The position numbers and the translations under genes were made by a program. Below are positions 24,322-40,373 of a stretch of DNA of 40,734 nt, in pieces. Numbering within the stretch: position 1 is the first letter of the stretch; every line of letters starts with the position of its first letter. The notes beneath the pieces are model-generated. The model made no database searches and was not told the origin of the DNA. It saw only the letters and a list, made by a program, of their open reading frames with translations. The DNA is from Accumulibacter sp. (lineage in GTDB: Bacteria; Pseudomonadota; Gammaproteobacteria; Burkholderiales; Rhodocyclaceae). The stretch spans positions 1 to 40,734 of the forward strand of contig NZ_JAMTDV010000022.1 of the NCBI RefSeq assembly GCF_023806565.1, read 5' to 3'.

Positions 24322-25380
24322 CTACATCCTTCTCGGCATCAACACCGTGTAGTCGAAATCAAGCAGCACACTCGCATCGTAACGGCCATCGGCCATCTTG
24401 TAGGGGAATTCAGCACAGGGTCTATCCTTGGTGGCCACCGTGCGCAGGCGGAGCGCGCCGAGATCGCTGCGTCCCGGAACGATCAGTTGCTCGAGCACTT
24501 CCGACCAGGCATACACCGTGTCGCCGGCAAATGCCGGCGAGACATGGCGGCCGCCGTTGATTGCGGCGACGGTGAAGGCGTTGGCGAGGCCGTTGAAGGA
24601 CAGCGAGCGGGCTAGGCTGATGATGTGACCGCCGTAAATGATTCGCCTCCCGAAACGGCCGGTCTTTTCCGCCTGCTGGTTAAAGTGCACGCGGGCGGTG
24701 TTCTGGTACAGCCGGGTGGCCATCATGTGTTCGCTTTCTTCGATGGTCATGCCGTCGACGTGGTCGATGCGCTCGCCCACCGAATAATCCTCCCAGAGTT
24801 CGCGACTGCCGGCGAGTGCGGTGTCGTACTGCTCCATGCGGAGCAGGCTAGGCACTACCAGGTCGCTGGCCGCAACAGCGGCGGGAAGATCCGGTACGAC
24901 GGCTTCCGGTGCCGGCGAAGCGGGATCGCGTTTGCGCACCATGACCCAACGGCAATAGTCGAGCGCGATCTGGCCACGCTGATTCACTCCACAGGAGCGG
25001 ATATAGACGACGCCGGTCTTGCCGTCACTGTTCTCCTTCAGGCCGATCACCGTGGAATCGGCGTTCAGCGTGTCCCCCGGATACACCGGGTGACCAAAGC
25101 GACCGGCCGCATAGCCCAGGTTGGCCACGGCATTGAGCGAAATGTCCGGCACGGTCCTGCCAAAGACCATGTGGAATGCGAGCAGATCGTCAACGGGCGC
25201 ACGCGGCAGGCCGAGCAGGTGGGCAAAAGTGTCGGCCGAGGAGAACGCAAAGCGCGAGCCGGTCAGCGCCGTGTACAGCGCCACGTCGCCCTCGGTGATG
25301 GTTCGCGGAGTTGCGTGTACGATCGTCTGTCCGATGGAGAAGTCTTCGAAAAAGTTGCCCAGCGTGGTCTTTTCGCTCAT
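24322..25380 (-). CDS. mch: mesaconyl-CoA (2-methylfumaryl-CoA) hydratase
   Basis: Interconverts beta-methylmalyl-CoA and mesaconyl-C1-CoA, a step shared by the ethylmalonyl-CoA pathway and the 3-hydroxypropionate bi-cycle. The 352-aa protein has two MaoC-type hotdog domains (about 8-165 and 185-350), with FFEDFSIGQTIVHATPRTIT opening the first and WEDYSVGERIDHVDGMTIEE the second. Length and both openings match characterised Mch proteins. It is last in mct-mcl-mch, 35 bases after mcl. A second, divergent MaoC-type hydratase lies at 33276. Confidence 0.92.
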   Translation of the reverse strand: MSEKTTLGNFFEDFSIGQTIVHATPRTITEGDVALYTALTGSRFAFSSADTFAHLLGLPRAPVDDLLAFHMVFGRTVPDISLNAVANLGYAAGRFGHPVYPGDTLNADSTVIGLKENSDGKTGVVYIRSCGVNQRGQIALDYCRWVMVRKRDPASPAPEAVVPDLPAAVAASDLVVPSLLRMEQYDTALAGSRELWEDYSVGERIDHVDGMTIEESEHMMATRLYQNTARVHFNQQAEKTGRFGRRIIYGGHIISLARSLSFNGLANAFTVAAINGGRHVSPAFAGDTVYAWSEVLEQLIVPGRSDLGALRLRTVATKDRPCAEFPYKMADGRYDASVLLDFDYTVLMPRRM

Positions 25381-25415
25381 TGGATGGTGTCTCCTTGTGC
25401 CATCGAGTGCGCTTG

Positions 25416-26471
25416 CTACAGGCCGTACGCGGCGGCCAGTTCCGGGTCGCGCCTGGCCACCAGTCGCGCGAGGTCGACCATCACGCGGGCTTGCTTCCAG
25501 GTGGCATCGTCCTGCATCTTGCCGTCAATCGTTGCCACGCCGCTGCCGTCGGGCATCGCCTCGAGGATGCGCTTGGCGAACAGCACTTCCTTGACGTCGG
25601 GGCTGAACACGCGCTTGGCGATGACGATCTGGTTCGGTGCCAGCGACCAGGCACCACTGCAGCCCATCAGGAATGCATTGCGGAACTGCGCCTCACATGC
25701 TGCTTCATCCTTCAGATCGCCGAAGGGTCCGTAGAACGAGCGCAGACCATGCGCGACCGCTGCGTCGACCATGCGGGCGACAGTGTAATGCCAGAGATCC
25801 TGCTGGAAGAATGCACGCTCGCCGGGGCCGCCTCCCTGGTTCTCTCCCGGATCGGCGAGCACACCATAGCCCGGATGTCCGCCACCGACCCGGGTGGTCT
25901 TCATGCCGCGCGAAGCCGCCAGATCGGCCGGACCCAGGCTCAGCCCATGCATGCGTGGGCTGGCGGCGCAGATTGCCTCGACATTGGTCACTCCCTGTGC
26001 CGTTTCGAGCAGGGCGTGCAGCAGAATCGGCTTCCTGATCGCGTACTTCGCTTCGAGCAGCGCCACGTACTGATCGACGAAATGGATGTCCCACGGGCCT
26101 TCCACCTTGGGGATCATGATCACATCGAGCTTGTTGCCGACGCGCCCGATGATCTGGTCGAGGTCGTCGAGCACCCAGGGGCTGTTCAGAGCGTTGATTC
26201 GCACCCACATTGCGGTGTCGCCGAAATCATGGCCGGCCAGCAGCTCGATGAAGCCGGCGCGCGCTGCGTCCTTGGCTTCGATCGGGATGGCATCTTCGAG
26301 ATTGCCGCACATGACATCGCACTGCCTGGCGGTTTCTGGCGCCTTGGCGCGAATCTTCTCGATATGTGGCGGAAAGAAGTGGATCATTCGTTCCGGCCGC
26401 ACGGGCAGTTCGCGGAGAGGCTGTGGCGCTCCGATGGCGAGCGGTTTGTAGAAGTGTACTGGCAGTTTCAT
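25416..26471 (-). CDS. mcl: L-malyl-CoA / beta-methylmalyl-CoA lyase
   Basis: CitE-like TIM-barrel lyase that condenses or cleaves glyoxylate with acetyl-CoA or propionyl-CoA. In Chloroflexus the homologue also cleaves citramalyl-CoA to pyruvate and acetyl-CoA. ATG 26471 gives 351 aa starting [11 protein letters not shown], as in Mcl proteins; 19 upstream in-frame residues are dropped. Motifs include CGNLEDAIP (metal-ligand aspartate/glutamate region, near 55), MIPKVEG near 119, LLETAQGV near 153 and [14 protein letters not shown] near 175. Between mct and mch, 60 bases after mct. Confidence 0.92.
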
Positions 26472-26531
26472 GGTGGTTTCCCCTGGTCTATGCGCGGCGG
26501 TTCGCTGCGCCGCGAATGTCGGCGGCAATTG

Positions 26532-27752
26532 TCAGTCTGGCCCCGCGACGACGCGCGCGTCGTGCAAGCGACCAACCTCGGCTTCGCTCAAGCCGAGAAT
26601 GTCGAGCAGAATCTGATCCGTGTGCTCGCCGAGTCGCGGCGCCGGCTTTGCCGGCAGGCGGGGCACACGGCCGAAATCGAGCGGCGTCGCGGGCATCAGG
26701 TAGGAGCCGATGCCGGGCTGTTCGGTCATGGCAAACATCGGATTGTCGATCGAACAATCGCGGTCACAGGCGATGGCTTCGCGCACACTGCGATAGGGGC
26801 CCCACGAAACGCGGTGGGCATCGAGGATGGCGGCTGCCTCGGCGAGGGTGCGGGCGTGGAACCATGGCTCGAGCAGGGCCGCAATCTGCTGTCGGGCGCG
26901 AAAGCGATTGCCTTCATCGCCGAGATCCAGACCCAACCGGACGCCGAGCGCGGCGAAAGCCTCCTGCAGGCCGGTGGCCTGGCTCAGACAACGCCACTGC
27001 ATGTCGGTGAGACCGACGACCATCAGACGCTTGCCGTCGAGCGTCGTGAAGTCGCGACCGAAAGCGCCGTAGAGATAGTTGCCCTGGCGCGGCCGGTCGC
27101 TGTCATTGACCATCACTTCGGCAATCATGCCGAAATTGCCGATCATTGCCAGTGCCACATCCTTCAGCGCGAGACGCACGAGCTGTCCTTCGCCAGTGAG
27201 TCGGCGATGCCGTTCGGCGGCGAGCAGGCCGAGGGCGATCATCTGGCCGCTGATGAAGTCCCACGCCGGAAACACGTGATTTACCACTTCCGGCGAACTG
27301 TTCGGCCCGGTCATCAAGGGTAGCCCGATCTGCGGGTTCAGCGTGTAATCGACTTCCGAGCTGCCGTCGCGACGACCGGTCAGGTTGATCATGATCAGGT
27401 CCTGTCGTCGCGCACGCAGCGCTTCGTAGGCCAGCCAGCCCTTGGCGGGAAAATTGGTGCTGAACAGGCCGGCGTTCTCACCTGGCGCACAGATCAGCTG
27501 GGTCAACAATTCCTGCCCGCGCGGCTTGCGAAAATCAACTGCGATCGAGCGCTTGCCCTTGTTCAGTCCTGCCCAGAAGAGGCTGTGTTTGCCGTCCAGC
27601 GTGAGCGGCCAGCGGTGATGGTCGAGTCCGCCGGCGAGGGGGTCGAAGCGGATGACGTCTGCGCCGAGCTGGGCCAGCGTCATTCCTCCCAGCGGTGCAG
27701 CGACAAAAGCGGAACCTTCGACGACGCGCAGGCCCTTGAGAATTCCATCCAT
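26532..27752 (-). CDS. mct: mesaconyl-CoA C1-C4 CoA transferase (2-methylfumaryl-CoA isomerase)
   Basis: CaiB-family (class III) CoA transferase, 406 aa. Opening LKGLRVVEGSAFVAAPLGGMTLAQLGADVIRFDP is the class III start (given here in two parts: LKGLRVVEGSAFVAAPLG, then MTLAQLGADVIRFDP). The name comes from context: beside mcl, mch and meh this enzyme moves CoA within mesaconate from C1 to C4 in the 3-hydroxypropionate bi-cycle. VDYTLNPQIGLPLMTG replaces the more general CaiB segment, in line with a specialised member. It is the first gene on the minus strand and diverges from meh across 347 bases. Confidence 0.85.
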   Translation of the reverse strand: MDGILKGLRVVEGSAFVAAPLGGMTLAQLGADVIRFDPLAGGLDHHRWPLTLDGKHSLFWAGLNKGKRSIAVDFRKPRGQELLTQLICAPGENAGLFSTNFPAKGWLAYEALRARRQDLIMINLTGRRDGSSEVDYTLNPQIGLPLMTGPNSSPEVVNHVFPAWDFISGQMIALGLLAAERHRRLTGEGQLVRLALKDVALAMIGNFGMIAEVMVNDSDRPRQGNYLYGAFGRDFTTLDGKRLMVVGLTDMQWRCLSQATGLQEAFAALGVRLGLDLGDEGNRFRARQQIAALLEPWFHARTLAEAAAILDAHRVSWGPYRSVREAIACDRDCSIDNPMFAMTEQPGIGSYLMPATPLDFGRVPRLPAKPAPRLGEHTDQILLDILGLSEAEVGRLHDARVVAGPD

Positions 27753-28099
27753 TTTCTTCTCCTGCAGCGTCGGCGCTCATCGCAGACGTATCGCAAGTCC
27801 TCTTCCGCTTGCGACAAGGTCGAGTGGAGCAGGGTACATGCCGATGCGGAATCTTTCGTAGCGCACGTCTCGTTTGCCAGTCGATCGCCTGAAGCGATCG
27901 ACAAGCCTGGACAGATGCCGATTGCAGGCGACCGAACGCCGACACAAGCGGGCTAGTATATCGGCAAACTCGCCCACTTGGCGCATGAATCTGGATCGAG
28001 TTGCAGATCAACCGGGGCTGCGTGCGGCGACGAGCGTTTGGCCGTATGCTGCGCATTGCTTGACAAAGCTTTTTCCGAGTCCTCGAAAGGATCTTCCCC
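27753..28099. other. divergent intergenic region between mct and meh
   Basis: 347 bases with no convincing gene; both divergent promoters should lie here. TTGACA at 28060-28065 is a perfect -35, but the hexamer 17 bases later is poor (TCGAAA) and would leave a very short leader for meh. AGTATA at 27955-27960 reads TATACT on the minus strand and may be a -10 for mct. A 23-bp inverted repeat sits at 27880-27902. Confidence 0.5.
27880..27902. promoter_or_regulatory. perfect inverted repeat, possible operator
   Basis: GTCGATCGC and GCGATCGAC flank a 5-base centre (CTGAA), making a perfect 9-bp dyad in the control region shared by mct and meh. Its position suits an operator for a dimeric regulator of both transcripts. 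No regulator gene is adjacent. Confidence 0.45.
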
Positions 28100-28951
28100 A
28101 TGACTGACGCAAACTACGCGAATTGGATCGGTCGCCAGGAGGTCATCGACGATGACCTGTGTCTCGCACCAGCACTGGCCGCGGCTGCGATGCTCGACGA
28201 TCCCGCCACTCGTTTCGCGCCGGGAAGCGCATTGCCGCCCTTGTGGCAGTGGTTCTACTTCCTTCCCCGCGTGCAGCAAACGATGCTCGGAGTAGATGGG
28301 CATCCGCAACGCGGCGGTTTCATGCCGCCGATTCCCTATCCGCGACGGATGTTTGCCGGTGCGCGCATGCGCTTCCATCGTCCTTTGCTGATTGGCCAGC
28401 CGGCCCGTCGGAAAGCAGTCATTCGTGACATCCGGCTGAAGTCGGGACGCTCCGGCGCGCTCGCCTTCGTCTCGGTTCTCTACAGCTTCCTGCAGGCGGG
28501 CCAATTGTGCATCGAAGAGGAGCAGGACATCGTTTACCGCGAGCCCGGGCCAGCGGTCGACCGTCCGCGCGTGCTCGACTGGCCGCAGCTTCCTTCCGGG
28601 GCGTGGGCGCGCGTAGTGAGACCCGATCCGATGCTGCTTTTTCGCTTTTCGGCACTGACCTTCAATGCACACCGCATTCACTACGATCGGCCCTATGCGA
28701 TCGAAGAAGAGGGCTATCCCGGGCTGGTGGTGCACGGACCGTTGACTGCCGTCCTGCTGATGGAACTCGTGCGTCAGCACGTGCAACACCCGGTCCAGAC
28801 ATTCCGTTTTCGCGGACTGGCGCCCCTCTTCGATCTCGCTCCGTTTCGTGTCGTGTGTTCCTCCGGCGGCGACGGTCTCCTCTGTCTGGAGGCACAAGCG
28901 CCAGATGGTATGACGGCGATGAGCGCGGACGCGGAACTCTCGGCGCCATAG
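28100..28951 (+). CDS. meh: mesaconyl-C4-CoA (3-methylfumaryl-CoA) hydratase
   Basis: Hydrates mesaconyl-C4-CoA to (S)-citramalyl-CoA, the step before cleavage to pyruvate and acetyl-CoA. The 283-aa protein is a double-hotdog MaoC/HTD2-like protein. The N-terminal part (about 1-150) holds a FAS1-like dehydratase domain with WQWFYFLP and the proline-rich FMPPIPYPRRMFAG. The C-terminal MaoC half has LLFRFSALTFNAHRIHYD near 180-197, with the catalytic asparagine-histidine pair, and VHGPLTAVLLMEL. Together with mct, mcl and mch it completes the glyoxylate-assimilation set; the name depends partly on that context. Confidence 0.85.
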   Translation: MTDANYANWIGRQEVIDDDLCLAPALAAAAMLDDPATRFAPGSALPPLWQWFYFLPRVQQTMLGVDGHPQRGGFMPPIPYPRRMFAGARMRFHRPLLIGQPARRKAVIRDIRLKSGRSGALAFVSVLYSFLQAGQLCIEEEQDIVYREPGPAVDRPRVLDWPQLPSGAWARVVRPDPMLLFRFSALTFNAHRIHYDRPYAIEEEGYPGLVVHGPLTAVLLMELVRQHVQHPVQTFRFRGLAPLFDLAPFRVVCSSGGDGLLCLEAQAPDGMTAMSADAELSAP

Positions 28952-29094
28952 CGGCCCGCCATCACCTCCCTCTTTCCCGGCCTTTCCGCAGGCCGAAGAC
29001 GGGTGGCTGTTCGGTTGCTGGGGCGGCACCGGGTTAACTGCATTGCCCTTTTTCGGTGTAGGCAAAATGGCCCTGCAAATACACCCAATCGAGC

Positions 29095-29124
29095 TTGCGA
29101 GTGGTCCGCGCGAAGGACTAGAAT
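29095..29124 (+). promoter_or_regulatory. candidate promoter for the ethylmalonyl-CoA operon or a small RNA
   Basis: TTGCGA (29095-29100) and TAGAAT (29119-29124) are 18 bases apart. Transcription would begin near 29131, immediately before the 11-bp hairpin at 29139-29162. Confidence 0.45.
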
Positions 29125-29138
29125 GATCGGGGCTCATG

Positions 29139-29335
29139 TCGCCGCGACAAGTGTCGCGGCGAGGCAGGCCGAGGATGCCGTCAGACGGACCGACGCGGAC
29201 GACGCACTTCTTTCGATGCGGATCGGGTAGCGCCGGTGGGCGGTTCGCAAGCGGTCGGAACGGCCGCTTGCAGTGGTCCGAGACGGTGCGCACGGGCTGC
29301 AAGCGGACGTCTCGGCAGCGCGATCGGCAAGCCGA
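29139..29335 (+). ncRNA. cluster of hairpins, possible structured leader RNA
   Basis: Successive inverted repeats: 29139-29149 with 29152-29162 (11 bp perfect); 29247-29254 with 29264-29271 (8 bp); 29278-29285 with 29308-29315 (8 bp); 29324-29328 with 29331-29335 (5 bp). GCAAGCGG occurs twice (29247-29254, 29299-29306) and either copy can pair with CCGCTTGC at 29264-29271. I do not recognise a known RNA family, and no cobalamin riboswitch signature was seen. GC-rich DNA yields chance hairpins, so this is tentative. Confidence 0.3.
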
Positions 29336-30064
29336 AGGCGCGGCCCGAGTGCTGCGAAGAATTCGGAATTGGCTCGTCGCAATGCGGTGGGCAGGCAGTG
29401 ACCAAGGGGAGGGCAGCCGTGGTTCAGCAATGCGTCCTGGTGTGGGGCTCCCGTGCCAGGGGCTACGCGCAGCGCAGGACTCCGCTGGTCCATCCCGACG
29501 ACTTGCGGCCGGCCCACGTGATCGCGGGCGAGGCGCGGCGGTCGAGCGTTCGCAGGAGGGCACCCCGCGGTTCGCTGATCGCTCGTCAAGGCGTGAAAAT
29601 GCCGTCCATGCGGACTGGGAAACAGTCGAGACAGGCCTTCAGGCGGGACGATGCAGGCAAGGCCCGGCTGGCGCACGAGGCAGTGCCCTTCTCGTGCACG
29701 GCAAGCCCGATTCGAGGCCAGCGTTCTCGCGCTGAGCTGTTTCCTACCCATCTTTCAGCGACTGGGGTGCGTTCCGGCCCGCAGTCGTCGACCGCGATTG
29801 CCGTCGCGCGCTCGTTTGCCCGATTGGCTACGAACACAGGCGGGCGTCGCCCAATGGCGCATGCTTTTTCCTGCTGGCCGATTCCCGCTGGCCGTGTCCG
29901 ACCGAGCCTTTCTGGCCCGGGGTCCTTTGCGCGGGCGGTCGTGCTCCAAGCCGGTATTCCCTGCGACCGGATCGTGGCCGTCGGCGGTGACCGTGGTGGG
30001 AGCGGCCGGAAATCAGCAGGATGTCGACAAGAATGTGTTTTTGGCAACGATCAGGAGGCAACAC

Positions 30065-31507
30065 ATGAAGCTCACTCTGACCCATGACGAATTGAATGCC
30101 TATTACAGCGAGCTGCACGACTCCAATGCGGTGTTCCGTGCGGATTATCCTGCCGATTCGTTCGAGAGACAGCCGGTCCACACGGTTTACGGAGGCGCCA
30201 ATCTGTTCAAGGCGAGCTTCGCCAGCAAACTGGGTGAGGTTGCTCTGAAGACTCTCGACACCTATGCACCGACCTACAACGTATTTGCACGCGTTCTTGG
30301 CCTGCCCGGATCCGAGACGCTGCCGACCAATCCGGTCTATCTGGACAGTCTGACGCGTGCGTTGGAAACCAGTCCGGAGCAGGTGCGCCAGATCAAGCCG
30401 GCTGCCTGGCTGGCGTTCACCGTGTTCAACCGTGTCGTCAAGAAGCTGCAAACCGAACCGATCGAGGACAATCGCATCGATTTCGAGGACGGCTATGGCA
30501 ATCGTCCCGATGACGAGGAGGATAGCCATGCCGTATCCGCTGCCGACGAAGTTGCCAAGGGCATGAGCGAGAATCTGCTGTCGCCATTCATCGGCATTCG
30601 GGTAAAGACGTTTTCTGACGAGTGCAAGGTGCGATCGATACGTACCCTCGACATATTCCTGACCCGATTGGCGGAGAAGACCGGTGGCAGGCTGCCACAG
30701 AATTTCATTGTCACGCTGCCCAAGGTGGTCACCCCGACGCAGGTTTCCACCTGCGCCAAGGTCCTGGAGAATCTCGAAAGCCGGCTGGGTTTTCCGCAGG
30801 GTTCGCTAAAAATGGAAATCATGATCGAAACCACCCAGTCGATCATCAACCACCGGGGCGAAAACACGGTTCCGCTGCTCGTCGCTGCCGCCGGAGGCCG
30901 CTGCCGCTCGGCCATTTTCGGGACGTACGATTATACGGCGTCGTGCAACATCACGGCCGCGCACCAAAGTCACACCCACCCCGCCTGTGATTTCGCCCGC
31001 CATGTGTTGCAGGTCAGTCTGGCAGGCACCGGCGTGACGATCAGTGACGGCGCCACCACCAGCATGCCGATCGGACCCCACAAGGCTGCCAAGGATGCCG
31101 CCCTTTCCCCGCAGCAGATGGACGAGAATCGCGCCGTGGTACACGGCGCCTGGAAGCTGCACTACGACAATATCATGCACTCGATGCGGCACGCGTATTA
31201 TCAGGGTTGGGATCTGAATCCGGGGCAATTGCCGGTGCGCTACGCAGCGGTCGATACCTTTTTCCTCAGCGGTCTGCAGGATGCTTCGGTCCGGCTGAAC
31301 GCTTTCCTCAACAAGGCAGCGCAGGCGACGCTGGTCGGCAATACCTTTGACGACGCGGCGACCGGCCAGGGGTTGTTGAACTTTTTTCTGCGCGGCATGG
31401 CGTGCGGAGCCATCACCGAGCAGGAGGTTCTGGCGACGGGAATCACCCTGGACGAACTGCGCTCCCGCTCGTTCGTTCGCATCGTCAATAACCGGGCCAA
31501 GAAATAG
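30065..31507 (+). CDS. HpcH/HpaI-CitE superfamily aldolase (DUF6986-like), putative beta-methylmalyl-CoA lyase
   Basis: ATG 30065 follows AGGAGG by 6 bases and gives 480 aa starting MKLTLTHDELNAYY; the frame is open upstream but that part has no coding character. CitE-superfamily marks are RIDFEDGYGNRPDDEE near residue 140 and MEIMIETTQSI near 258, supplying the acidic metal ligands. FGTYDYTASCNITAAH near 288 is a further segment. It is longer than Mcl (about 350 aa) and resembles the DUF6986 group. As first gene of the ethylmalonyl-CoA operon it likely cleaves beta-methylmalyl-CoA to glyoxylate and propionyl-CoA, or malyl-CoA; this is inference from context. Confidence 0.75.
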   Translation: MKLTLTHDELNAYYSELHDSNAVFRADYPADSFERQPVHTVYGGANLFKASFASKLGEVALKTLDTYAPTYNVFARVLGLPGSETLPTNPVYLDSLTRALETSPEQVRQIKPAAWLAFTVFNRVVKKLQTEPIEDNRIDFEDGYGNRPDDEEDSHAVSAADEVAKGMSENLLSPFIGIRVKTFSDECKVRSIRTLDIFLTRLAEKTGGRLPQNFIVTLPKVVTPTQVSTCAKVLENLESRLGFPQGSLKMEIMIETTQSIINHRGENTVPLLVAAAGGRCRSAIFGTYDYTASCNITAAHQSHTHPACDFARHVLQVSLAGTGVTISDGATTSMPIGPHKAAKDAALSPQQMDENRAVVHGAWKLHYDNIMHSMRHAYYQGWDLNPGQLPVRYAAVDTFFLSGLQDASVRLNAFLNKAAQATLVGNTFDDAATGQGLLNFFLRGMACGAITEQEVLATGITLDELRSRSFVRIVNNRAKK

Positions 31508-31553
31508 CCATCGAGCAGTGGTGGTCGATCGCTTGTGAAGAAAGGAATCAATC

Positions 31554-33230
31554 ATGACTGAGGTCAACAGCGACACGCTGGGGTCGCTGCAGTATCTGGA
31601 ATCAGCCGATGCGGTACTCAGACAGGCGCTGACCTGGGTAAAGCGGGAATGTGCCGGCGGCAAGGGGGTGTCGAACGAGAAACTCGACGAGCACCAAATG
31701 GCCAGCTTTGACCTGGCCTGGTGTGCGGCGGAATCGACCGCCGCACGTTTTGCCGTGGAATATGCGCGTCAGGTGGCTGCCGTTGCGCCAGTTGCCGACG
31801 GGAGCTGTCTGGAGGAGCGGATGGCGCGAGTGTTCTGCGCCGAAGCCTTGCAAAACATCCACAATCGCTTGCGGGCGCGACCACAGAGCTTCGGGCTCGA
31901 CGACTCGAATCTGGCGCCGTTTGCCGCGACGGCCGTCAGTCGCTTCTGCCAGAGCCAGCTCGATGCCGGCAATCTGGAATCACTGGGCAGAGAAGTGATC
32001 GCACGCAATGGTGCCAGCGGCGCGTACATGCTGGACGATCACGCCACGATGATGCAGGACGCGTTCCGCAAGCTGGCCACCAACGTCGTCATGCCGCTGG
32101 CCGAGGAGATCCATCGGGAAGACCGGATCATTCCGCCGGAGATTCTCGACCAATTGACAGAAATGGGCTGCTTCGGGTTGTCGGTCCCCGAGAGATACGG
32201 CGGTCTCCAGAGTGACGACCATGAAGACAACACGGGGATGATCGTCGTTACCGAAGAGCTCTCGCGCGGCTCGCTCGGCGCGGCCGGCAGCCTGATCACG
32301 CGGCCGGAGATTCTCAGTCGAGCGTTGCTCAAGGGGGGCACCGAGGAGCAGAGGCAAAAATGGTTGCCGCTGGTCGCGAGTGGCCAGCCCTTGTGCGCCA
32401 TCGCCGTGACCGAGCCGGATACCGGCTCCGATGTCGCGGCGATGCGTCTGAAGGCGACGAAGTGCGAGGGCGGATGGCTGCTCGACGGCGTCAAGACCTG
32501 GTGCACCATGGCAGGAAAGGCCGGCGTGCTGCTCGTTCTCGCGCGCTCGAATCCTGACCGCTCGCTCGGCCACAAGGGGCTAAGCATGTTTCTGGTCGAA
32601 AAGGATTCGTATGACGGTCATGATTTCGAATATCGTCAGGCGCAGGGCGGCGTGCTCAGTGGCCGCGCGATTTCGACCATCGGTTATCGTGGCATGCATT
32701 CCTACGAGGTATTCTTCGACAATGTGTTCGTGCCGGACGAGAATCTGGTGGGCGGACCGGAGGGGGAAGGGAAGGGTTTCTACTTCACGATGGCTGGGTT
32801 CGCTGGCGGCCGCATTCAAACCGCTGCACGCGCCATCGGCGTAATGCAGGCCGCGTTCGAGCGGGCGGTTTCGTATTCCCAGGAGCGCAAGGCTTTCGGA
32901 AAACCGATCGGCGAATTTCAACTGACTCTCGTCAAGCTGGCGCGCATGGCGACGCTGCTGACGGTTTCCCGCCAGTTCACCTACGCCGTCGGTCGTTTGA
33001 TGGACCAGGGGCTGGGTCAGATGGAAGCGAGCATGGTGAAGCTGTTTACCTGTCGAACCGCCGAGTGGCTGACTCGCGAAGCGATGCAGATACACGGTGG
33101 CATGGGTTACGCAGAGGAATCGCCGGTCAGCCGCTATTTTCTCGATGCCCGTGTGCTGTCGATATTCGAAGGTGCCGAAGAAACATTGGCTCTGAAAGTG
33201 ATCGCGCGCTCCCTCATCGACGCTGTCTAG
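31554..33230 (+). CDS. mcd: (2S)-methylsuccinyl-CoA dehydrogenase
   Basis: FAD enzyme of the acyl-CoA dehydrogenase superfamily that oxidises methylsuccinyl-CoA to mesaconyl-C1-CoA and passes electrons to ETF. At 558 aa it has the N-terminal extension of about 150 residues that sets Mcd apart from ordinary acyl-CoA dehydrogenases of about 390. Motifs include CAIAVTEPDTGSDVAAM near 281, GYRGMHSYEVFFDNVFVP near 380 and QIHGGMGYAEESPVSRYFLDARVL near 505 (given in part). E539 in FEGAEE near the C-terminus is the predicted catalytic base by analogy with the family. Between the aldolase and the MaoC gene. Confidence 0.94.
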   Translation: MTEVNSDTLGSLQYLESADAVLRQALTWVKRECAGGKGVSNEKLDEHQMASFDLAWCAAESTAARFAVEYARQVAAVAPVADGSCLEERMARVFCAEALQNIHNRLRARPQSFGLDDSNLAPFAATAVSRFCQSQLDAGNLESLGREVIARNGASGAYMLDDHATMMQDAFRKLATNVVMPLAEEIHREDRIIPPEILDQLTEMGCFGLSVPERYGGLQSDDHEDNTGMIVVTEELSRGSLGAAGSLITRPEILSRALLKGGTEEQRQKWLPLVASGQPLCAIAVTEPDTGSDVAAMRLKATKCEGGWLLDGVKTWCTMAGKAGVLLVLARSNPDRSLGHKGLSMFLVEKDSYDGHDFEYRQAQGGVLSGRAISTIGYRGMHSYEVFFDNVFVPDENLVGGPEGEGKGFYFTMAGFAGGRIQTAARAIGVMQAAFERAVSYSQERKAFGKPIGEFQLTLVKLARMATLLTVSRQFTYAVGRLMDQGLGQMEASMVKLFTCRTAEWLTREAMQIHGGMGYAEESPVSRYFLDARVLSIFEGAEETLALKVIARSLIDAV

Positions 33231-33275
33231 GACGGGCGGCGGGTGCCCCCAGCGTCACGCGAAAAGGATGAATCC

Positions 33276-34463
33276 ATGTCGCAGGCAATTCGTTTCCGAG
33301 CGCAGGTCGAACTGGCCAAAACAGTGCAGGTAGACCTCGCAAAGGTCCGGTATCCTCATTATGGTCGCTATCTGGAGGAGTTCGTTCCCGGCCAGGTGTT
33401 CGTTCACCCCCGCGGCTTCACCTTTCTCCGCGCCCAGATGGAAGCATTTGCGCGGACCTACATGCAGTGCAATCCGTTGTATCTCAACGAACAGTATGCC
33501 AAGGCCAGCGGATTTTCGGGTCTGCTGGCGTCACCCCAGATGGTGTTCAATGTGGTTCTCTCGCTGGGGGTGCAGAACGATTCGGAAAAGGCGATGGCCA
33601 ACCTTGGTTATTACGATGCCCGGTTTCTGCGACCCGTGCACGAGCTGGATACCATCCGTTCGCTCACCAAGGTGATCGATCGCAAGGAGCGCGGTGCCGG
33701 CAAGCCGGGGATCGTGACCATCCGGACGCTTGGCATCAACCAGAACGAAGAGGTGGTGCTGCAATACGAACGGAAGATCATGGTTGCCGGGCAGGGTGAC
33801 CGCCCGGCGACCACACCCTTGCCCCGGTCGGACGTGATGCCGCCTTTCCCCTGGGTCGATGATGCGGAGGTCGTTCTGCCGCGCTTCCCGGAACGGATGC
33901 CCTCCGGGTTGACCGGTCCCAATTCCTGTTTCGAGGATTTTGCAGTCGGCGACATCATCGTGCATGCCAACGGCCGAACGATCACCGATGAGCATCTGCC
34001 GCTGACCTATGCCGTGGGCAACACGCATCCGCTGCATTTCGACCGGATTTTCAGTTCCGGCCTGTCGGGCAAGATGAGCGGCGACCCCATCGTTTATGGC
34101 GGTCTGGTTTTTGCTTGGCTCGACGGCCTGGCCAGCCGCGACGTCAGTGAAAACAGCGTCTGGGAGCTCGGCTTTACCGAGGGGTATCACACCCAGCCGT
34201 CGATCGGCGGCGACACCGTTGCAGCCCTCTCTCGGGTGCTGGCTGTCGAAGATGCTCCCGGCGAATTGTCGGCGAAATTCGGCATCGTCAGTTTCCAGTT
34301 GATCGGCGTCAAGAACGTCAGCGCGTCCAGCGCGCTTGCGAAGTACGGCGCAGACCTGTTCATCAAGGAGAACGACAAGAAGGAGATGGACAAGGAGAAG
34401 ATCGACGGCAAGATTTTTGAGATCGAGAGACGTCTCTTGATCAGAAAAAGGGGACAGTCATGA
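33276..34463 (+). CDS. MaoC-type double hotdog hydratase, putative mesaconyl-CoA hydratase
   Basis: ATG 33276 with AAGGA 7 bases upstream gives 395 aa starting MSQAIRFRAQ. Two MaoC-like domains are seen: the first opens YLEEFVPGQVFVHPRGFTF near residue 30, the second CFEDFAVGDIIVHANGRTIT near 221, then THPLHFD and GDPIVYGGLVFAWLDGL. A lysine- and glutamate-rich insert (KENDKKEMDKEK) lies near the C-terminus. It is only distantly like the mch product at 24322. Its place between mcd and ecm suggests hydration of mesaconyl-C1-CoA to beta-methylmalyl-CoA. The stop overlaps the ecm start by 4 bases. Confidence 0.8.
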   Translation: MSQAIRFRAQVELAKTVQVDLAKVRYPHYGRYLEEFVPGQVFVHPRGFTFLRAQMEAFARTYMQCNPLYLNEQYAKASGFSGLLASPQMVFNVVLSLGVQNDSEKAMANLGYYDARFLRPVHELDTIRSLTKVIDRKERGAGKPGIVTIRTLGINQNEEVVLQYERKIMVAGQGDRPATTPLPRSDVMPPFPWVDDAEVVLPRFPERMPSGLTGPNSCFEDFAVGDIIVHANGRTITDEHLPLTYAVGNTHPLHFDRIFSSGLSGKMSGDPIVYGGLVFAWLDGLASRDVSENSVWELGFTEGYHTQPSIGGDTVAALSRVLAVEDAPGELSAKFGIVSFQLIGVKNVSASSALAKYGADLFIKENDKKEMDKEKIDGKIFEIERRLLIRKRGQS

Positions 34464-36478
34464 TTTCTTCCCGGAAAAAGCGCGATCAGCCCTGGTTGAT
34501 GCGGACCTACAGCGGTCACAGTTCGGCCAGAGCGTCCAACGCCCTCTATCGGACCAATCTCGCCAAGGGCCAGACTGGGCTTTCGGTGGCTTTCGACCTG
34601 CCCACGCAGACGGGCTACGACGCTGACCATCCGTTGGCGAGAGGCGAGGTCGGCAAGGTCGGGGTGCCCATCTCGCACATTGGGGACATGGATCAACTGT
34701 TCGATCAGATTCCGCTCGACCAGATGAACACGTCGATGACCATCAACGCCACTGCGGCATGGCTCCTGTCGCTGTACATCGGGTTGGCGCAACGGCGAGG
34801 AATCGATCCGAGAAAACTGAGTGGCACCACCCAGAACGACATCATCAAGGAGTATCTCTCGCGCGGCACGTACATCTATCCGCCGGGTCCGTCGATGCGT
34901 CTGATCGCCGACACGATCAACTACACGGTCCGGCATGTGCCGAAGTGGAATCCGACGAACATCTGCAGCTACCACTTGCAGGAGGCGGGCGCGACGCCGG
35001 TTCAGGAGTTGGCCTATGCGCTGTGCACCGCTATGGCAGTGCTCGACACGGTCAAGGCTTCCGGCGAGATCGAGGTGGCTGCCTTTCCGCAGGTCGTCGA
35101 GCGGATCTCCTTCTTCGTCAATGCCGGCATGCGCTTCGTCGAAGAATGTTGCAAGTTGCGGGCGTTCGGCGAAATGTGGGACGAACTGACGGCGACCCGC
35201 TACCAGGTCGACGATCCGAAGCTGCGTCGCTTCCGTTACGGCGTGCAGGTAAACTCGCTGGGCCTGACCGAGCCACAGCCGGAAAACAACGTGCAGAGAA
35301 TCGTTCTCGAAATGCTGGCGGTAGTGCTCTCCAGGCGGGCGCGAGCGCGTGCCATCCAGTTGCCTGCATGGAACGAGGCCATGGGACTTCCGCGCCCCTG
35401 GGATCAGCAATGGGCGCTGCGGATGCAGCAGGTGATGGCATTCGAAACCGACTTGCTAGAATACGAGGATATTCTCGACGGGTCGCCGGTCATCGCTGCC
35501 AAGGTTGCCGACTTGATCGAAGGCGCGAAGAAGGAGATCGAGAAAGTCGAGGAGCAGGGCGGAATCATCGCGGCGATCGAGTCCGGCTATATCAAGCGGG
35601 AACTGGTGGGAAGCCACATGCACCGCTTGCGTGCCATCGAGTCTGGCGATCTGCAAATCATCGGGGTCAATTGCTTTCAGGAAACCGCCGAATCGCCGCT
35701 GACCGGGGGCACCGACGGGGCGATCATGAAGATCGATCCGGCCGCCGAGCGTGGGCAGATCGAGCGCCTGCAGGCGCATCGAAAAAGCCGCAACGATGCC
35801 GACGTTCGTGCCGCCCTGCAGGGACTCGCCGATGCCGCCAAGACTGGCGAAAACATCATGCCGAGTTCGATTCGTTGCGCGCTGGCGGGAGTCAGCACCG
35901 GCGAATGGGGCGACACGCTGCGCGCGGTTTTCGGCGAGTTCAGGCCGCCGACGGGGATCGACATTGCCATTGACAGCCGCCAGGTGCTTGGCCAGAAGGA
36001 CCTGGTTGCCGAACTCAGGGAACGGGTAGCCGACACCGGCAGCGCATTGGGTCGTCCGCTGAAACTGTTGGTCGGCAAGCCCGGACTGGATGGGCATTCC
36101 AATGGTGCCGAGCAGGTCGCCGTGAAAGCCAGGGACGTTGGCTTCGAGGTCGTTTACGACGGCATTCGGCTGACGCCGCAACAGATTGCCCAGGCGGCCG
36201 AGGAGGAAGGAGTGCACCTGGTTGGCCTGTCGATCCTCTCGGGAAGCCACATGGAACTGGCGGGAGCGGTCCTCCGGGAACTGCATGCGCGGGATCTCGG
36301 GAACCTGCCGGTGATCGCCGGCGGGATCATTCCGCCAGAAGATGCCGAAAGACTGAAGGCGCTCGGGGTGCGCGCGGTCTACACCCCCAAGGACTTCAAT
36401 CTGAATGCCATCATGGTGGACATGGTGGATGTGATCCGCGAATGCAACGGACTGCAACGGCTCGGCCCGCGACCCTGA
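34460..36478 (+). CDS. ecm: ethylmalonyl-CoA mutase (B12-dependent)
   Basis: Adenosylcobalamin-dependent carbon-skeleton mutase turning (2R)-ethylmalonyl-CoA into (2S)-methylsuccinyl-CoA. The 672-aa protein has the methylmalonyl-CoA mutase-type substrate domain (about 1-520; RTYSGHSSARASNALYR, VAFDLPTQTGYDAD) and a C-terminal B12-binding domain (about 535-665). The base-off motif reads LDGHSNGAEQ with H546 as cobalt ligand. HSNG in place of the HDRG of methylmalonyl-CoA mutases is typical of Ecm and separates the two. Coupled to the upstream gene by ATGA overlap and followed 7 bases later by meaB. Confidence 0.95.
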   Translation: MISSRKKRDQPWLMRTYSGHSSARASNALYRTNLAKGQTGLSVAFDLPTQTGYDADHPLARGEVGKVGVPISHIGDMDQLFDQIPLDQMNTSMTINATAAWLLSLYIGLAQRRGIDPRKLSGTTQNDIIKEYLSRGTYIYPPGPSMRLIADTINYTVRHVPKWNPTNICSYHLQEAGATPVQELAYALCTAMAVLDTVKASGEIEVAAFPQVVERISFFVNAGMRFVEECCKLRAFGEMWDELTATRYQVDDPKLRRFRYGVQVNSLGLTEPQPENNVQRIVLEMLAVVLSRRARARAIQLPAWNEAMGLPRPWDQQWALRMQQVMAFETDLLEYEDILDGSPVIAAKVADLIEGAKKEIEKVEEQGGIIAAIESGYIKRELVGSHMHRLRAIESGDLQIIGVNCFQETAESPLTGGTDGAIMKIDPAAERGQIERLQAHRKSRNDADVRAALQGLADAAKTGENIMPSSIRCALAGVSTGEWGDTLRAVFGEFRPPTGIDIAIDSRQVLGQKDLVAELRERVADTGSALGRPLKLLVGKPGLDGHSNGAEQVAVKARDVGFEVVYDGIRLTPQQIAQAAEEEGVHLVGLSILSGSHMELAGAVLRELHARDLGNLPVIAGGIIPPEDAERLKALGVRAVYTPKDFNLNAIMVDMVDVIRECNGLQRLGPRP

Positions 36479-36485
36479 CAGATCC

Positions 36486-37535
36486 ATGACGCAAGTCAAG
36501 CTTCCCGATCCCGAGCAGCTGGCTTTGCGCATTTTGCGCGGCGAGCGGGCGGCGGTGGCCAGCGGCCTGAATCTGCTGGACAACAAGCTTGCCGAAGCGC
36601 GTTCCCGTTCGGCGCGGCTGCTGGCATCGCTGTCCGGAGAGCACTGGCTCGATGCCGGCCACCTGATCGGGATCACCGGCCCGCCGGGTGCGGGCAAGTC
36701 GTCGCTGGTTTCGGCACTCATTCGGGCATGGCGTTCCTCCGGCAGGAGCGTTGCGGTGCTTGCGGTGGATCCCTCGAGCCGCCCCGAACTGGGAGGCGGG
36801 GCCTTGCTCGGAGATCGCATTCGTATCAAGAATTCGTCGCATGATGAAGGCTTGTTCATCCGCTCGCTGGCCAACCGCAATCAGTTGGGGGGCGTGGCGA
36901 CCGAGGTCTGGCCGATGAGTTGGCTGCTATTGACCTGTTTCGACATCGTCGTGATCGAGACGGTGGGCGTCGGGCAGACCGAAATCGATATCGCCGAAAT
37001 CGGCGACACGGTCTGCTACGTGGCGCAGCCAGCTTCGGGCGACACGATCCAGTATTTGAAGTCGGGGATCATCGAAATCCCGGATATCTTCGCGGTCAAT
37101 AAGTCGGACCTCGGTGCTGCCGCGCGCAAGACCGCTGCCGAAATCGCGCGCAGCGCATCGCGGCAGGACCGCCGGGCCGACTGGGATTACCCGGTGTGCT
37201 TGGTGAGCGCGGCAATGAGCACCGGGATCGAGCAATTCCGCGACCATTTCGACAGGCATCGCAGCTTTCTCACCAATGCCGGATTACTGGGAAAGCTGCG
37301 CGCCCGTCATCAGAGCGCCTGGGTAGTGCGCTTGCTGAAAGAGGAATTTGGAACTTTCGGCCTAGAACTGGCCGGTGGCCGCACCGCTGTCGCCGAGCGT
37401 CTGAGCAAGGGTGTACTGAACCAGTTCGAAGAATACGAGCGCCTGCGCAAGCAAATTCTTTCCCGATTCATGTCGGTAAGCCGACCGAGCAGTCCAACCA
37501 AAAAGGAGCATCCTGATGAGCAAGCAATTGTATGA
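36486..37535 (+). CDS. meaB: MeaB/ArgK family GTPase chaperone of the mutase
   Basis: P-loop GTPase that loads and protects B12-dependent mutases. The 349-aa protein has Walker [10 protein letters not shown] near residue 65, [10 protein letters not shown] near 93, [16 protein letters not shown] near 154 and the base-recognition motif NKSD near 205, all typical of MeaB. Next to ecm it most likely serves ethylmalonyl-CoA mutase. Its last 20 bases overlap the start of ccr in another frame, so translation of the two is probably coupled. Confidence 0.94.
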
Positions 37536-39270
37536 GTTAGGCGAGAAACCTCCCCTCGGAGAAGTGCCGGAGAAGATGCATGCCTGGCTGGTCCGCCAGG
37601 ATCGCTTTGGCAAGCCCACCGAGGCGTTTCAGAAGGAGGTGGTGAATACGCCCTCCATCGCCGACGATGAAGTGCTGGTTTATGTCATGGCGGCGGGTAT
37701 CAACTACAACAACGTCTGGGCGGCACTGGGTATTCCGGTCAATGTGATCGCTGCCCGCAACAAGGGCGGGGAACCCGAAGACTTCCATATCGGCGGCAGC
37801 GACGCATCGGGGATCGTCTATAAGGTTGGCAAGGACGTGACCAACGTCAAGGTAGGCGACGAAGTCGTGATGCATTGCGGTCAATACAGCCGAAACTGCG
37901 AGTGGGTCAAGAAGGGGGGTGACCCGATGTACTCGCCGTCGTTCAAAATCTGGGGCTATGAGACCAATTATGGCAGCTTCGCCCAATTCACCCGGGTACA
38001 GGCGCAGCAGTGCATGCCCAAGCCCAAGCACATGAACTGGGAGGAGTCGGCAGCCTATACGCTGGTCGCGGCTACCGCATGGCGGATGCTGCACGGCTGG
38101 GGCGCCAGTTCGATCAAGAAAGGGGATGTCGCGCTGATCTGGGGCGGCGCCGGGGGTCTGGGCTCGATGGCGATTCAGATCGCCAAGGCGGTCGGTGCCA
38201 CTTCGGTGGCGATGGTGTCGGGCGAGGACAAGTTCGACTACTGCATGAAGTTGGGCGCAAAAGGCTGCATCAATCGCAATGACTTCGATCACTGGGGAAT
38301 GCTGCCGCACTGGAAGGATGGCGCAGGTTACGCGAAGTGGTTGAAAGGCGTACGCTCGTTCGGCGCGAAGATCTGGGAAGTGCTCGGCGAAAAGCGGGCA
38401 CCGAATATCGTTTTCGAGCATCCGGGCGAGAGCACCATCCCGAGTTCGATTTTCGTCTGCGAGACCGGCGGCATGGTCGTCGTCTGCGCCGGCACTACCG
38501 GGTACAATGCCACGGTCGATCTGCGTTACCTCTGGATGCGACAGAAGCGTCTGCAGGGATCGCACTTCGCGAATACGGAGCAGGCCAACCAGATGAACGA
38601 ATTGGCGTTGCGCGGCTTGCTCGATCCGTGCATGTCGCGTGTCTTCACCTACGAAGAGTTGCCACTGGCCCACCAACTGATGCACGACAACAAGCACCCG
38701 CACGGCAACATGTCCGTGCTGATCGGCGCCACCGAGTTCGGTCTTGGAGCCAGCGGCAAGCCCCCGGTGGCAATGGTGCATCCGACCTTGCCCAAGGGCG
38801 ACGTGCATACGACCCCCGCGCCGTACCCGATGTCCGTACCGCTGCCGAGCATCGCCGAGGGCGAAGCGCTGACCGTTGCCGACGACGGTACCAAGGTGCG
38901 CGACCTGATGCATCTGGGCATTATCTCCTGTACGCCGGACGATAGCGTCGGAACGGTCGCCAAGATCATGGTGGACAAGGAAATCCACGCGGTCGTGGTG
39001 ATGGATGACCAGGGACAGGCAGTGGGCGTCGTGTCGCAGACCGACATGGTGCTGGCGCGGCAGGGCCGGACTCCGGATCAGGCGCGATCGATGCTGGCCA
39101 GGGAAGTCATGACCCCGGGTTGCGCCACCTGCGACGCCGATATGCTTTTGAGCGAGGCGGTCAGCCTGCTGACTGCACGGCGGATGCATCGCCTGGTGGT
39201 CACCGAAAATGGCCAGCCGGTCGGCGTGCTCTCGATGACCGACGTCGTGCGCAAGATCATCGGCGAGTAG
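37516..39270 (+). CDS. ccr: crotonyl-CoA carboxylase/reductase with C-terminal CBS pair
   Basis: Reductively carboxylates crotonyl-CoA with NADPH and CO2 to ethylmalonyl-CoA, the key step of the pathway. Residues 1 to about 430 are a zinc-independent MDR protein of Ccr type: [16 protein letters not shown] near 61, [13 protein letters not shown] near 93, [14 protein letters not shown] near 146 and the nucleotide site [17 protein letters not shown] near 208. Usual Ccr proteins end near 430-450 aa. This one continues through a proline-rich linker into two CBS domains (about 458-515 and 525-584, [13 protein letters not shown] and [11 protein letters not shown] closing each). The frame is continuous with no sign of an error. 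The CBS pair suggests adenylate or other nucleotide sensing. Confidence 0.94.
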
Positions 39271-39398: not shown

Positions 39399-40373
39399 AT
39401 GCAGGCCATCGTCTGCCAGGAACTCGGCGGCCCTGCCGCCTTGCGCCTGAGCGAAGTTCCTGATCCATGCCCCGGAGCGGGGCAGGTGCGTCTGCGAGTG
39501 CGCGCCTGCGGGATCAACTTCGCCGATGGTCTGATCACCCGTGGCCAGTATCAGGTGCAGCCGCAACTGCCCTTCAGTCCTGGTTTCGAGGTTGCCGGCG
39601 AAGTGCTGGAACTGGGTGCCGGCGTGGACGAATTTGCGCAAGGCGATCGAGTGATCGCCATCACGCCGCACGGCGGCTACGCCGAGCAGGTCGTGGTAGC
39701 CGCGACGCGTTGCCTGCGGATGCCGGCGGCGATGCCCTGGGTCGACGGGGCTGCCTTCCCGGTCGTTTTCGGCACTTCGCACGTCGCCCTGGCGCACCGG
39801 GCGCGGTTGCGGAAGGGAGAGCTGCTGGTGGTGCATGGGGCCGGTGGCGGTGTCGGGCTGACCGCAGTTGCCATCGGCAAGCAATTGGGGGCGACGGTGA
39901 TTGCGACCGCGAGCAGTCGTGCCAAGCTGGAGGCGGCTCGCGCACAGGGCGCGGACCACCTGATCGATGCCAGCGACGACCTGCGGTTGCGGATCAGGGA
40001 ACTGAGCAACGGGCGCGGCGCCGACGTGGTGTACGATCCGGTCGGTGGGGATTCATTCACCGCGTCGCTGCGCAGCATGGCATTCGAGGGGCGGATCCTG
40101 ATCATTGGATTCGCGAGCGGCTCCGTGCCGCAGGTTCCCGCCAACCATCTGCTGGTCAAGAATGTTGATGTAATCGGGGTCAATTGGCCGGCCTACGCCG
40201 AACTGCATCCCGAAGTGATGATCGGCAGTTTCCGTACCCTCGTTCAATGGTATGTCGACGGCGCGATCAGGCCGCACGTTTCGGCGACGTATCCGCTGGC
40301 ACAGGCGGTCGACGCCCTGCATGAGGTCGTGGGCCGAAAATCCACCGGGAAAATCGTCATCACCGTCGACTGA
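39399..40373 (+). CDS. NADPH:quinone oxidoreductase family protein (MDR)
   Basis: A 324-aa zinc-independent medium-chain dehydrogenase/reductase. It has the N-terminal GroES-like domain (GQVRLRVRACGINFADGLITRGQY near 28-50, in part), the nucleotide-binding motif VHGAGGGVGLTAVAIGK near 145 and GADVVYDPVGGD near 207 typical of quinone reductase-like proteins. Substrate is unknown; some relatives reduce enoyl-CoAs or quinones. It starts 128 bases after ccr. Both are MDR proteins, but this one lacks Ccr features, so any role in the pathway is a guess. Confidence 0.85.
   Translation: MQAIVCQELGGPAALRLSEVPDPCPGAGQVRLRVRACGINFADGLITRGQYQVQPQLPFSPGFEVAGEVLELGAGVDEFAQGDRVIAITPHGGYAEQVVVAATRCLRMPAAMPWVDGAAFPVVFGTSHVALAHRARLRKGELLVVHGAGGGVGLTAVAIGKQLGATVIATASSRAKLEAARAQGADHLIDASDDLRLRIRELSNGRGADVVYDPVGGDSFTASLRSMAFEGRILIIGFASGSVPQVPANHLLVKNVDVIGVNWPAYAELHPEVMIGSFRTLVQWYVDGAIRPHVSATYPLAQAVDALHEVVGRKSTGKIVITVD

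Follow-up and report, generated by a model that had tools for sequence, protein, structure and literature searches.

Gene content of the locus

The stretch of DNA analysed here, referred to as the window, spans 40,734 nucleotides of an Accumulibacter sp. genome (assembly GCF_023806565.1, contig NZ_JAMTDV010000022.1, here C22) and holds an operon of the ethylmalonyl-CoA (EMC) pathway beside a Chloroflexus-type gene module made up of mct, mcl, mch1 and meh. The source genome measures 3.71 Mb and is 99.85% complete. Mct shares 93% identity with its counterpart in Candidatus Accumulibacter contiguus and 92% with that in A. vicinus, and the three cluster at 99/89 support, which marks the organism as a Candidatus Accumulibacter species. 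On the minus strand, an operon of the pyruvate:ferredoxin oxidoreductase (PFOR) type (19469-23957) is followed by mch1, mcl and mct; on the plus strand, meh precedes the EMC operon, which runs in the order DUF6986 gene, mcd, mch2, ecm, meaB, ccr and qor, with intergenic distances of -20 to 128 bp. An original prediction, made from the DNA letters, had placed ccr, ecm, mcd and meaB next to mct, mcl, mch and meh. All of these genes lie where it put them, with family scores above the cut-offs for Mct and Ccr; its list of the operon was incomplete in that the DUF6986 gene, the second MaoC hydratase and qor were omitted. The features of the two gene sets are as follows.

24322-25380, minus strand: mch1, mesaconyl-C1-CoA hydratase, 352 amino acids (aa); 585 bits to 4e3e (Chloroflexus), 480 bits to 8HGN
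25416-26528, minus strand: mcl, Chloroflexus-type (S)-malyl-/beta-methylmalyl-/(S)-citramalyl-CoA lyase; 657 bits to 4l7z/4l80
26532-27752, minus strand: mct; TIGR04253 842 bits (cut-off 725), 756 bits to 7xkg, 755 bits to 8apq
27753-28099, no strand: gap of 347 bp between the divergent genes mct and meh; the smtA/smtB site in Chloroflexus and many relatives
28100-28951, plus strand: meh, mesaconyl-C4-CoA hydratase, 283 aa; Pfam FAS1_DH, Chloroflexus Meh clade
30065-31507, plus strand: DUF6986 protein, 480 aa, CitE/malate-synthase-like; PF22484 582 bits, start at 30065 after AGGAGG
31554-33230, plus strand: mcd, (2S)-methylsuccinyl-CoA dehydrogenase of the EMC type with N-terminal extension; 619 bits to 8ciw, 314 bits to 6es9
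33243-34463, plus strand: mch2, second MaoC-type hydratase; PF19315, 121 bits to 4e3e, Asn-His pair kept
34460-36478, plus strand: ecm, ethylmalonyl-CoA mutase (B12); PF01642 and PF02310, substrate assigned by context
36486-37535, plus strand: meaB, mutase chaperone GTPase; PF03308
37516-39270, plus strand: ccr, crotonyl-CoA carboxylase/reductase with a C-terminal CBS domain pair; TIGR01751 556 bits (cut-off 378.55), two PF00571 stretches
39399-40373, plus strand: qor, zinc-type MDR oxidoreductase at the operon end; Pfam

An open reading frame (ORF) on the minus strand at 27953-29563 overlaps meh, has no family match and was taken as spurious. The hydratase gene at 33243 was considered as meh and rejected, the Meh gene being the one at 28100. 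Papers are cited below by PubMed Central (PMC) number.

A Chloroflexus-type module

In the 3-hydroxypropionate bi-cycle of Chloroflexus, the genes of the glyoxylate-assimilation half (mct, mcl, mch and meh) lie in the same order as in the window, with products 63-81% identical to those found here (for Chloroflexus islandicus, Mct 80%, Mcl 81%, Mch1 70% and Meh 63%). As judged by sequence, Meh falls within the clade of Chloroflexus Meh (96/99 support), and Mch1 is assigned as a mesaconyl-C1-CoA hydratase by its 480 bits to 8HGN, the EMC-pathway hydratase of Methylorubrum extorquens. Residues of function are retained as well. Two residues named for intramolecular transfer in Mct, Leu43 (for which the listed intramolecular enzymes, that of A. 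phosphatis among them, have Leu or Ile) and Asp165 (PMC9813914), are both kept in the window Mct. The catalytic and metal-binding residues named for Mcl (Asn58, Arg92, Glu157, Asp184 and Asp318; PMC3832036) are kept in register at residues 76, 110, 175, 202 and 340 of the window ORF (N, R, E, D and D). The Chloroflexus lyase cleaves malyl-CoA and citramalyl-CoA and forms beta-methylmalyl-CoA (PMC3832036), and from the Chloroflexus-type sequence and these residues a trifunctional Mcl, with a role as beta-methylmalyl-CoA lyase, is predicted here. A lyase for citramalyl-CoA, on which the original prediction depended, is thus represented in the genome by a protein with its catalytic residues kept that is expected to have this activity. 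The sole other match to the HpcH/HpaI family in the genome (L090:1357-2349) adjoins a gene read from its sequence as malate dehydrogenase.

Between meh and mct, Chloroflexus and many relatives carry a pair of CoA-transferase III genes, which by place and similarity we take to be smtA and smtB. They are absent from this position in the window, and the four other CoA-transferase III genes of the genome are at best 44% identical to either; the malyl-CoA feed of the bi-cycle through SmtAB was not found in the window genome. In contrast to Chloroflexus, the module would here be fed by the EMC pathway or by isocitrate lyase and not by malyl-CoA.

The ethylmalonyl-CoA operon

The EMC pathway of Cereibacter/Rhodobacter and Methylorubrum, whose canonical products are glyoxylate and propionyl-CoA, has ccr, mcd, a mesaconyl-C1-CoA hydratase, the mutase and meaB in common with the window. 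The window differs from the canonical pathway in its Chloroflexus-type lyase, its additional mct and meh, the CBS tail on Ccr and the DUF6986 gene within the operon. Mcd matches (2S)-methylsuccinyl-CoA dehydrogenase (8ciw) over nearly its full length and is assigned on this likeness as a C1-CoA dehydrogenase. For Ecm, membership of the mutase family is certain: it matches methylmalonyl-CoA mutase in the PDB (390 bits), with no Ecm named among the PDB matches, and it is 63% identical to a homolog adjoining ccr in an alphaproteobacterium (G027). The specific names Ecm and MeaB are putative, given from family membership and the place of both genes beside ccr.

A proposed junction at mesaconyl-C1-CoA

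An EMC-type Mcd yields mesaconyl-C1-CoA (PMC12290011). Because the window Mcd is of this type, the evidence supports a meeting of the EMC operon and the mct/mcl/mch/meh module at mesaconyl-C1-CoA, the substrate of Mct, and the original prediction that the two could join there gains from it. No sequence feature was seen that would separate the two sets if they are co-expressed. We consider it somewhat probable that the locus is a junction of the two pathways with two branches, one of which would make pyruvate from acetyl-CoA or polyhydroxybutyrate (PHB) and CO2.

The EMC operon would convert crotonyl-CoA by way of ethylmalonyl-CoA and methylsuccinyl-CoA to mesaconyl-C1-CoA. The source of crotonyl-CoA would be (R)-3-hydroxybutyryl-CoA, the monomer pool of PHB, converted probably by the CroR-type hydratase whose gene lies 3' of the operon in most relatives seen. 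In one branch, Mch1/Mch2 and Mcl would form glyoxylate and propionyl-CoA, for polyhydroxyvalerate (PHV) and redox balance; in the other, Mct, Meh and Mcl would form pyruvate and acetyl-CoA. Since these hydratase and lyase reactions can run both ways, the two branches would supply one network. To carry acetyl-CoA or PHB plus CO2 to pyruvate, the C1-to-C4 branch would require neither net glyoxylate nor free ferredoxin nor ATP. From crotonyl-CoA to pyruvate, the sole gene not at the locus is that for ethylmalonyl-CoA epimerase, for which no genome search was made. Ahead of crotonyl-CoA, thiolase, acetoacetyl-CoA reductase and crotonase are also not among the genes typed in the window, the part of the genome covered. 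For the use of these substrates by these proteins, for the direction of flux and for its physiological timing, we infer from the genes.

The steps sum to acetyl-CoA + CO2 + 2 NADPH -> pyruvate + CoA + 2[H]. This confirms the balance first proposed and matches Table 1 of PMC10521678 (acetyl-CoA + HCO3- + 2 NADPH + UQ -> pyruvate + UQH2 + CoA, -39 +/- 9 kJ/mol, where UQ is ubiquinone). The EMC pathway run to glyoxylate and propionyl-CoA, followed by their reassimilation, gives the identical sum, as expected from the like outcome originally claimed for this alternative. With atoms mapped on the established mechanisms of Ccr and the mutase family, the junction takes the pyruvate carboxyl from one acetyl carbonyl and the other two carbons from a second acetyl unit, and CO2 ends in C1 of acetyl-CoA, whereas in pyruvate synthase CO2 becomes C1 of pyruvate. 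The claim that the shortcut performs the same carbon reaction as pyruvate synthase therefore stands for the net sum and fails for the atom map. From this map, 13C2-acetate would give fully labelled pyruvate through the junction and doubly labelled pyruvate through PFOR; the glyoxylate detour and the direct junction share one map.

Linkage of the two gene sets among relatives

The window was compared with 26 Accumulibacter-type loci (L006-L023, L025, L026, L031, L034, L046 and L051-L053), which together with it form one Mct clade (27 rows, 98/96 support) that includes Propionivibrio, Dechloromonas and a few metagenome-assembled genomes. EMC genes lie within the fetched stretch around mct in 13 of the 26 loci. 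Nine have none despite at least 6.6 kb of sequence upstream of mct, and four of these nine (L007, L008, L011 and L026) are from genomes without Ccr over the cut-off; the remaining four loci cover less than 3.5 kb. The operon occurs in three orders relative to mct: with its DUF6986 end towards mct/meh (L006, L009, L013, L015, L017-L019, L021, L034, L053 and the window), with its qor end towards mct/meh (L014 and L016) or downstream of mch1 (L023). With 13 of 26 loci and three orders, the linkage is beyond chance.

Rearranged loci bear on the coupling most directly. In three relatives (G004, G009 and G021), meh lies away from mct as the last gene of the EMC operon, on the same strand, after qor and a CroR/PhaJ-type MaoC gene; because the three meh genes form one clade (100/100), the move is counted as one event. 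At L101, the CroR-type gene and meh abut stop to start. A second event is seen in G012, where mct adjoins the EMC operon (L021), meh, mcl, mch1 and the PFOR-type genes lie together on another contig (L122), and mct is missing there from between meh and mcl. Neither Mct nor Meh takes part in the canonical EMC pathway, and for this reason their moves are what the proposed shortcut predicts. A coupling of the two gene sets is favoured by the gene order of these relatives, in which meh or mct stands at the EMC operon. At L100:9718-10587, a truncated second copy of the CroR-type gene stands between an intact one and meh, which it abuts; it may be a scar left when meh joined the operon.

Ccr was checked in 20 Accumulibacter-type genomes, all chosen for Mct (loci L013, L016, L018, L020, L051 and L053 were left out), and scored over the cut-off in 15. 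These 15, with G000 and G065, make up the 17 genomes counted below as EMC genomes; the 27 genomes searched for Mcl, Meh and the hydratases include two duplicate pairs (G006/G172 and G007/G126), each counted once. All 17 have Mcl (at least 87%), which in G016 is found as two pieces at contig ends and in G014 and G020 has a stop within the span of the match; 16 have a true Meh (at least 68%). Among 150 genomes sampled from the family, a set that missed the Propionivibrio and Dechloromonas genomes that carry Mct, Mct was found in four and Ccr in three, each in the genus of the window, a distribution that fits a single shared ancestry.

Other lineages with Mct-like genes

In the alphaproteobacterium G027, homologs of ccr, ecm and mcd are adjacent and occur with an EMC-type Mch (63%), an Mcl at 43% and an Mct of a separate clade whose TIGR04253 score of 726 bits is just above the cut-off of 725. 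Its mct is separated by about 0.8 kb and an opposite-strand gene from a distant Meh-like gene. The alphaproteobacterium G029, with a similar combination of EMC genes and Mct, has an Mct at 701 bits, a Ccr fragment only, at a contig end, and no Mcl match. The Meh-like genes of both were tried as meh and, given a very long branch, not counted. In a SAR324 genome (G034), Ccr occurs together with an Mct-like gene, below the cut-off, that adjoins an Mcd homolog; Mcl and Meh were not found in this genome. At a SAR324 locus (L054:8938-12946), a MaoC hydratase, the Mct-like gene and the Mcd homolog stand in a row, and Ccr lies elsewhere in the genome. These genomes hint that the EMC pathway and Mct, as identified by homology, were combined more than once in evolution.

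Loci of Marinobacter and Pseudomonadales were considered as instances of the same shortcut and rejected; we regard them as a distinct, though related, pathway. Of the 32 loci L054-L085, 30 have an Mcd homolog (53-61%) in the stretch retrieved, and Ccr over the cut-off was found in none of the 13 genomes searched for L055-L085. The two Mct-like proteins scored from this group (L054 and L055) reach 584 and 597 bits against the TIGR04253 cut-off of 725. The Marinobacter cluster (L055:635-12390) has genes for a Meh-like hydratase, a CitE-like lyase, an acyl-CoA dehydrogenase, thiolase-family proteins, an Mcd homolog, an SDR protein, the Mct-like protein and a further CoA transferase, in a genome without Ccr over the cut-off; it perhaps encodes a branched-dicarboxylate pathway.

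The PFOR-type operon and further features

The operon that neighbours the module on its mch1 side has four genes.

19469-21091, minus strand: NAD(P)H/FAD module (Nfn/GltD-like) fused to a PFOR-delta-type ferredoxin domain; Pfam, PDB
21091-22134, minus strand: PFOR-type beta subunit, thiamine pyrophosphate-binding; Pfam, best PDB match 9bt4_C (PFOR beta), 298 bits
22115-23632, minus strand: PFOR-type alpha subunit (ORF); best PDB match 9bt4_B (PFOR alpha), 405 bits, next an oxalate oxidoreductase, 237 bits
23361-23957, minus strand: PFOR-type gamma subunit; PF01558

Because the alpha ORF overlaps the gamma gene, its true start is probably near 23380. The fused protein matches NfnA (296 bits) and, at residues 486-539, PFOR delta (9bt4_G), with TIGR02179 PorD_KorD at 67.8 bits (cut-off 60.05). 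Pyruvate is the likely substrate by similarity: the top NCBIfam model of the alpha subunit is the pyruvate synthase PorA_Arch (468 bits, below the cut-off of 550), and oxalate and phenylglyoxylate enzymes rank among the next closest relatives of the subunits. A 2-oxoglutarate enzyme was also considered and set aside, such matches being far weaker. The operon is predicted to encode an NAD(P)H-linked pyruvate oxidoreductase. An alpha match was found in 20 of the 21 genomes searched (the window genome included; one match is a fragment), and the alpha gene follows mch1 in 16 of the 26 Accumulibacter-type loci. Two further POR_N matches lie on other contigs of the window genome (C12 and C109).

The DUF6986 gene leads the EMC operon wherever the fetched stretch reaches that end, and among 274 genomes sampled across the class it was found in one, that of the window itself. 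A profile comparison of two small alignments relates its product to Mcl (probability 90, E 1.6e-6), with the metal-ligand Glu and Asp aligned, and it is possibly a second beta-methylmalyl-CoA lyase. Its sequence search of the PDB returned malate synthase G alone (E about 0.2), and AlphaFold models of nine close relatives had a mean pLDDT of 48.8, too poor for a fold search. In A. contiguus, the gene is apparently split into two overlapping matches in that assembly (L006:4000-5471).

The CBS tail of Ccr recurs at 19 loci (17 genomes) of the clade, at 80-94% identity. It may sense adenylates and switch the carboxylase; no paper on a crotonyl-CoA carboxylase with a CBS domain was found in the open-licence PMC literature. 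A MaoC gene of the CroR/PhaJ type follows qor in 12 of the 16 relatives in which qor was fetched. The window contig stops 361 bp past qor, with no MaoC gene in that span.

Evidence against the junction and alternative explanations

The alternative that survives best is that the module acts as in Chloroflexus, turning propionyl-CoA (from propionate or PHV) and glyoxylate (from isocitrate lyase) into pyruvate and acetyl-CoA, with the EMC operon serving independently for redox balance and propionyl-CoA and the two being neighbours by history. We regard it as unlikely; the findings in its favour, and others that weigh against a junction, are gathered here. Five of the 20 genomes checked have no Ccr over the cut-off (G002, G003, G006, G017 and G033). 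Because the first four of these hold Mct, Mcl, Meh and Mch1 all the same, the module has, on present gene assignments, a role independent of the EMC pathway, most likely with propionyl-CoA and glyoxylate as its substrates; G033 has Mct (Mct and Ccr were the genes checked there). Three of the four keep smtAB at the locus and G017 does not. A second source of glyoxylate is available in the window genome, where isocitrate lyase is present.

The hydratases point the same way. Among the 17 EMC genomes, 11 have both candidate mesaconyl-C1-CoA hydratases, four have mch1 only, two have mch2 only and none lacks both. In G007 and G014, mcd and ecm form an unbroken pair without mch2, in G009 and G016 the position of mch2 falls at a contig end, and G020 and G028 have no mch1 after mcl. 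It is this pattern that suggests mch2 as a second, putative mesaconyl-C1-CoA hydratase, and because every EMC genome has at least one candidate, it suggests that the glyoxylate branch is kept. A bypass of glyoxylate, which the original prediction had proposed, lacks support in view of the 17 of 17 EMC genomes with a candidate C1-hydratase and the at least four relatives that keep the module without Ccr over the cut-off. Loss of smtAB was tried as a marker of Ccr or the EMC pathway and does not track it: of the EMC genomes, 10 keep smtAB at the locus, six lack it there and one has a remnant.

Expression and gene content add to these points. On the plus strand of the window, 1113 bp separate meh from the DUF6986 gene, with one promoter-like site found in the gap against 0.3 expected; because of the gap and this site, meh and the EMC genes are probably transcribed separately. 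In Accumulibacter, transcription of the EMC genes has been interpreted as propionyl-CoA production (PMC12604563). The EMC genome G020 has no true Meh, its best match standing at 47%. The moves of meh and mct to the EMC operon amount to two events, seen in draft genomes. The pathway may be ferredoxin-free, yet the organism owns a likely ferredoxin-type pyruvate enzyme, so that the ferredoxin-free synthesis of pyruvate put forward originally may hold for the route itself and is weakened by the adjacent PFOR-type operon.

Against a module that works only as in Chloroflexus, however, meh or mct came to the EMC operon through two separate rearrangements, the linkage is found in three orders, and the product of Mcd is the substrate of Mct, so that keeping the two sets apart would need temporal or spatial control. 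In the Accumulibacter reported on in PMC12604563, the module could also serve as a sink for glyoxylate made by the EMC pathway, which is compatible with the shortcut and with this alternative alike.

Much less probable is a module run in reverse, in which pyruvate and acetyl-CoA would be condensed to citramalyl-CoA and passed through mesaconyl-CoA to propionyl-CoA and glyoxylate, for PHV. The lyase reactions are reversible (PMC3832036), and a citramalate cycle in that direction is known from purple bacteria (PMC8307300); the Chloroflexus lyase, however, is reported to form citramalyl-CoA only at high pyruvate excess (PMC3832036). That the gene sets are merely linked, co-acquired or hitch-hiking without a common function, is very improbable: the confinement of Mct and Ccr to one genus in the family sample is compatible with one acquisition, but the linkage has been rearranged yet retained, the hydratases are never both missing and the catalytic residues are kept.

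Relation to known pathways

The junction reading, which stands on gene identities, catalytic residues, conserved linkage and stoichiometry, has a close precedent on paper. The reductive citramalyl/ethylmalonyl-CoA pathway of 2021 is an artificial computer design that joins the EMC pathway to Mct and Meh (PMC10521678), with the same reactions through mesaconyl-CoA and citramalyl-CoA and the same net equation as the window. The direct shortcut, offered in the original prediction as a new proposal, is therefore not new. The window differs from the design in that the genes are adjacent in a natural genome and that its C1-hydratases leave the glyoxylate branch open. In the open-licence PMC literature searched, the junction was not found described for any natural organism. 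The methylsuccinate branch of itaconate degradation also leads from methylsuccinyl-CoA through a dehydrogenase, a hydratase and a lyase to pyruvate and acetyl-CoA, as here; its dehydrogenase makes mesaconyl-C4-CoA directly (PMC12290011), whereas the C1-type Mcd of the window would need Mct. Pyruvate synthase, to which the PFOR-type operon next to the module is related, has the same net carbon reaction with different atoms.

For Accumulibacter itself, a partial bi-cycle has been published (PMC6593406), as has the EMC pathway, with its products given as propionyl-CoA and glyoxylate (PMC12604563); for Contendobacter, the position of mesaconyl-CoA at a branch point is mentioned briefly (PMC8956781). 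Overall, the proposal is partly supported: its steps are chemically plausible by homology and favoured by the genomes, the idea itself is not new, and the natural combination is.

Implications for phosphorus-removing bacteria

If the junction operates, its most likely use would be to turn stored PHB into pyruvate and then glycogen under oxygen, while the NAD(P)H-linked PFOR-type enzyme would handle pyruvate and acetyl-CoA without oxygen. We propose tentatively, with confidence short of even, that Candidatus Accumulibacter naturally runs an oxygen-tolerant, ATP-free and ferredoxin-free conversion of acetyl-CoA or PHB plus CO2 to pyruvate and so rebuilds glycogen in the aerobic phase of phosphorus removal. 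If this is true, evolution would have reached the design of PMC10521678 first, with the junction enzymes together in a natural genome, and the carbon and redox bookkeeping of phosphorus-removing sludge would change.

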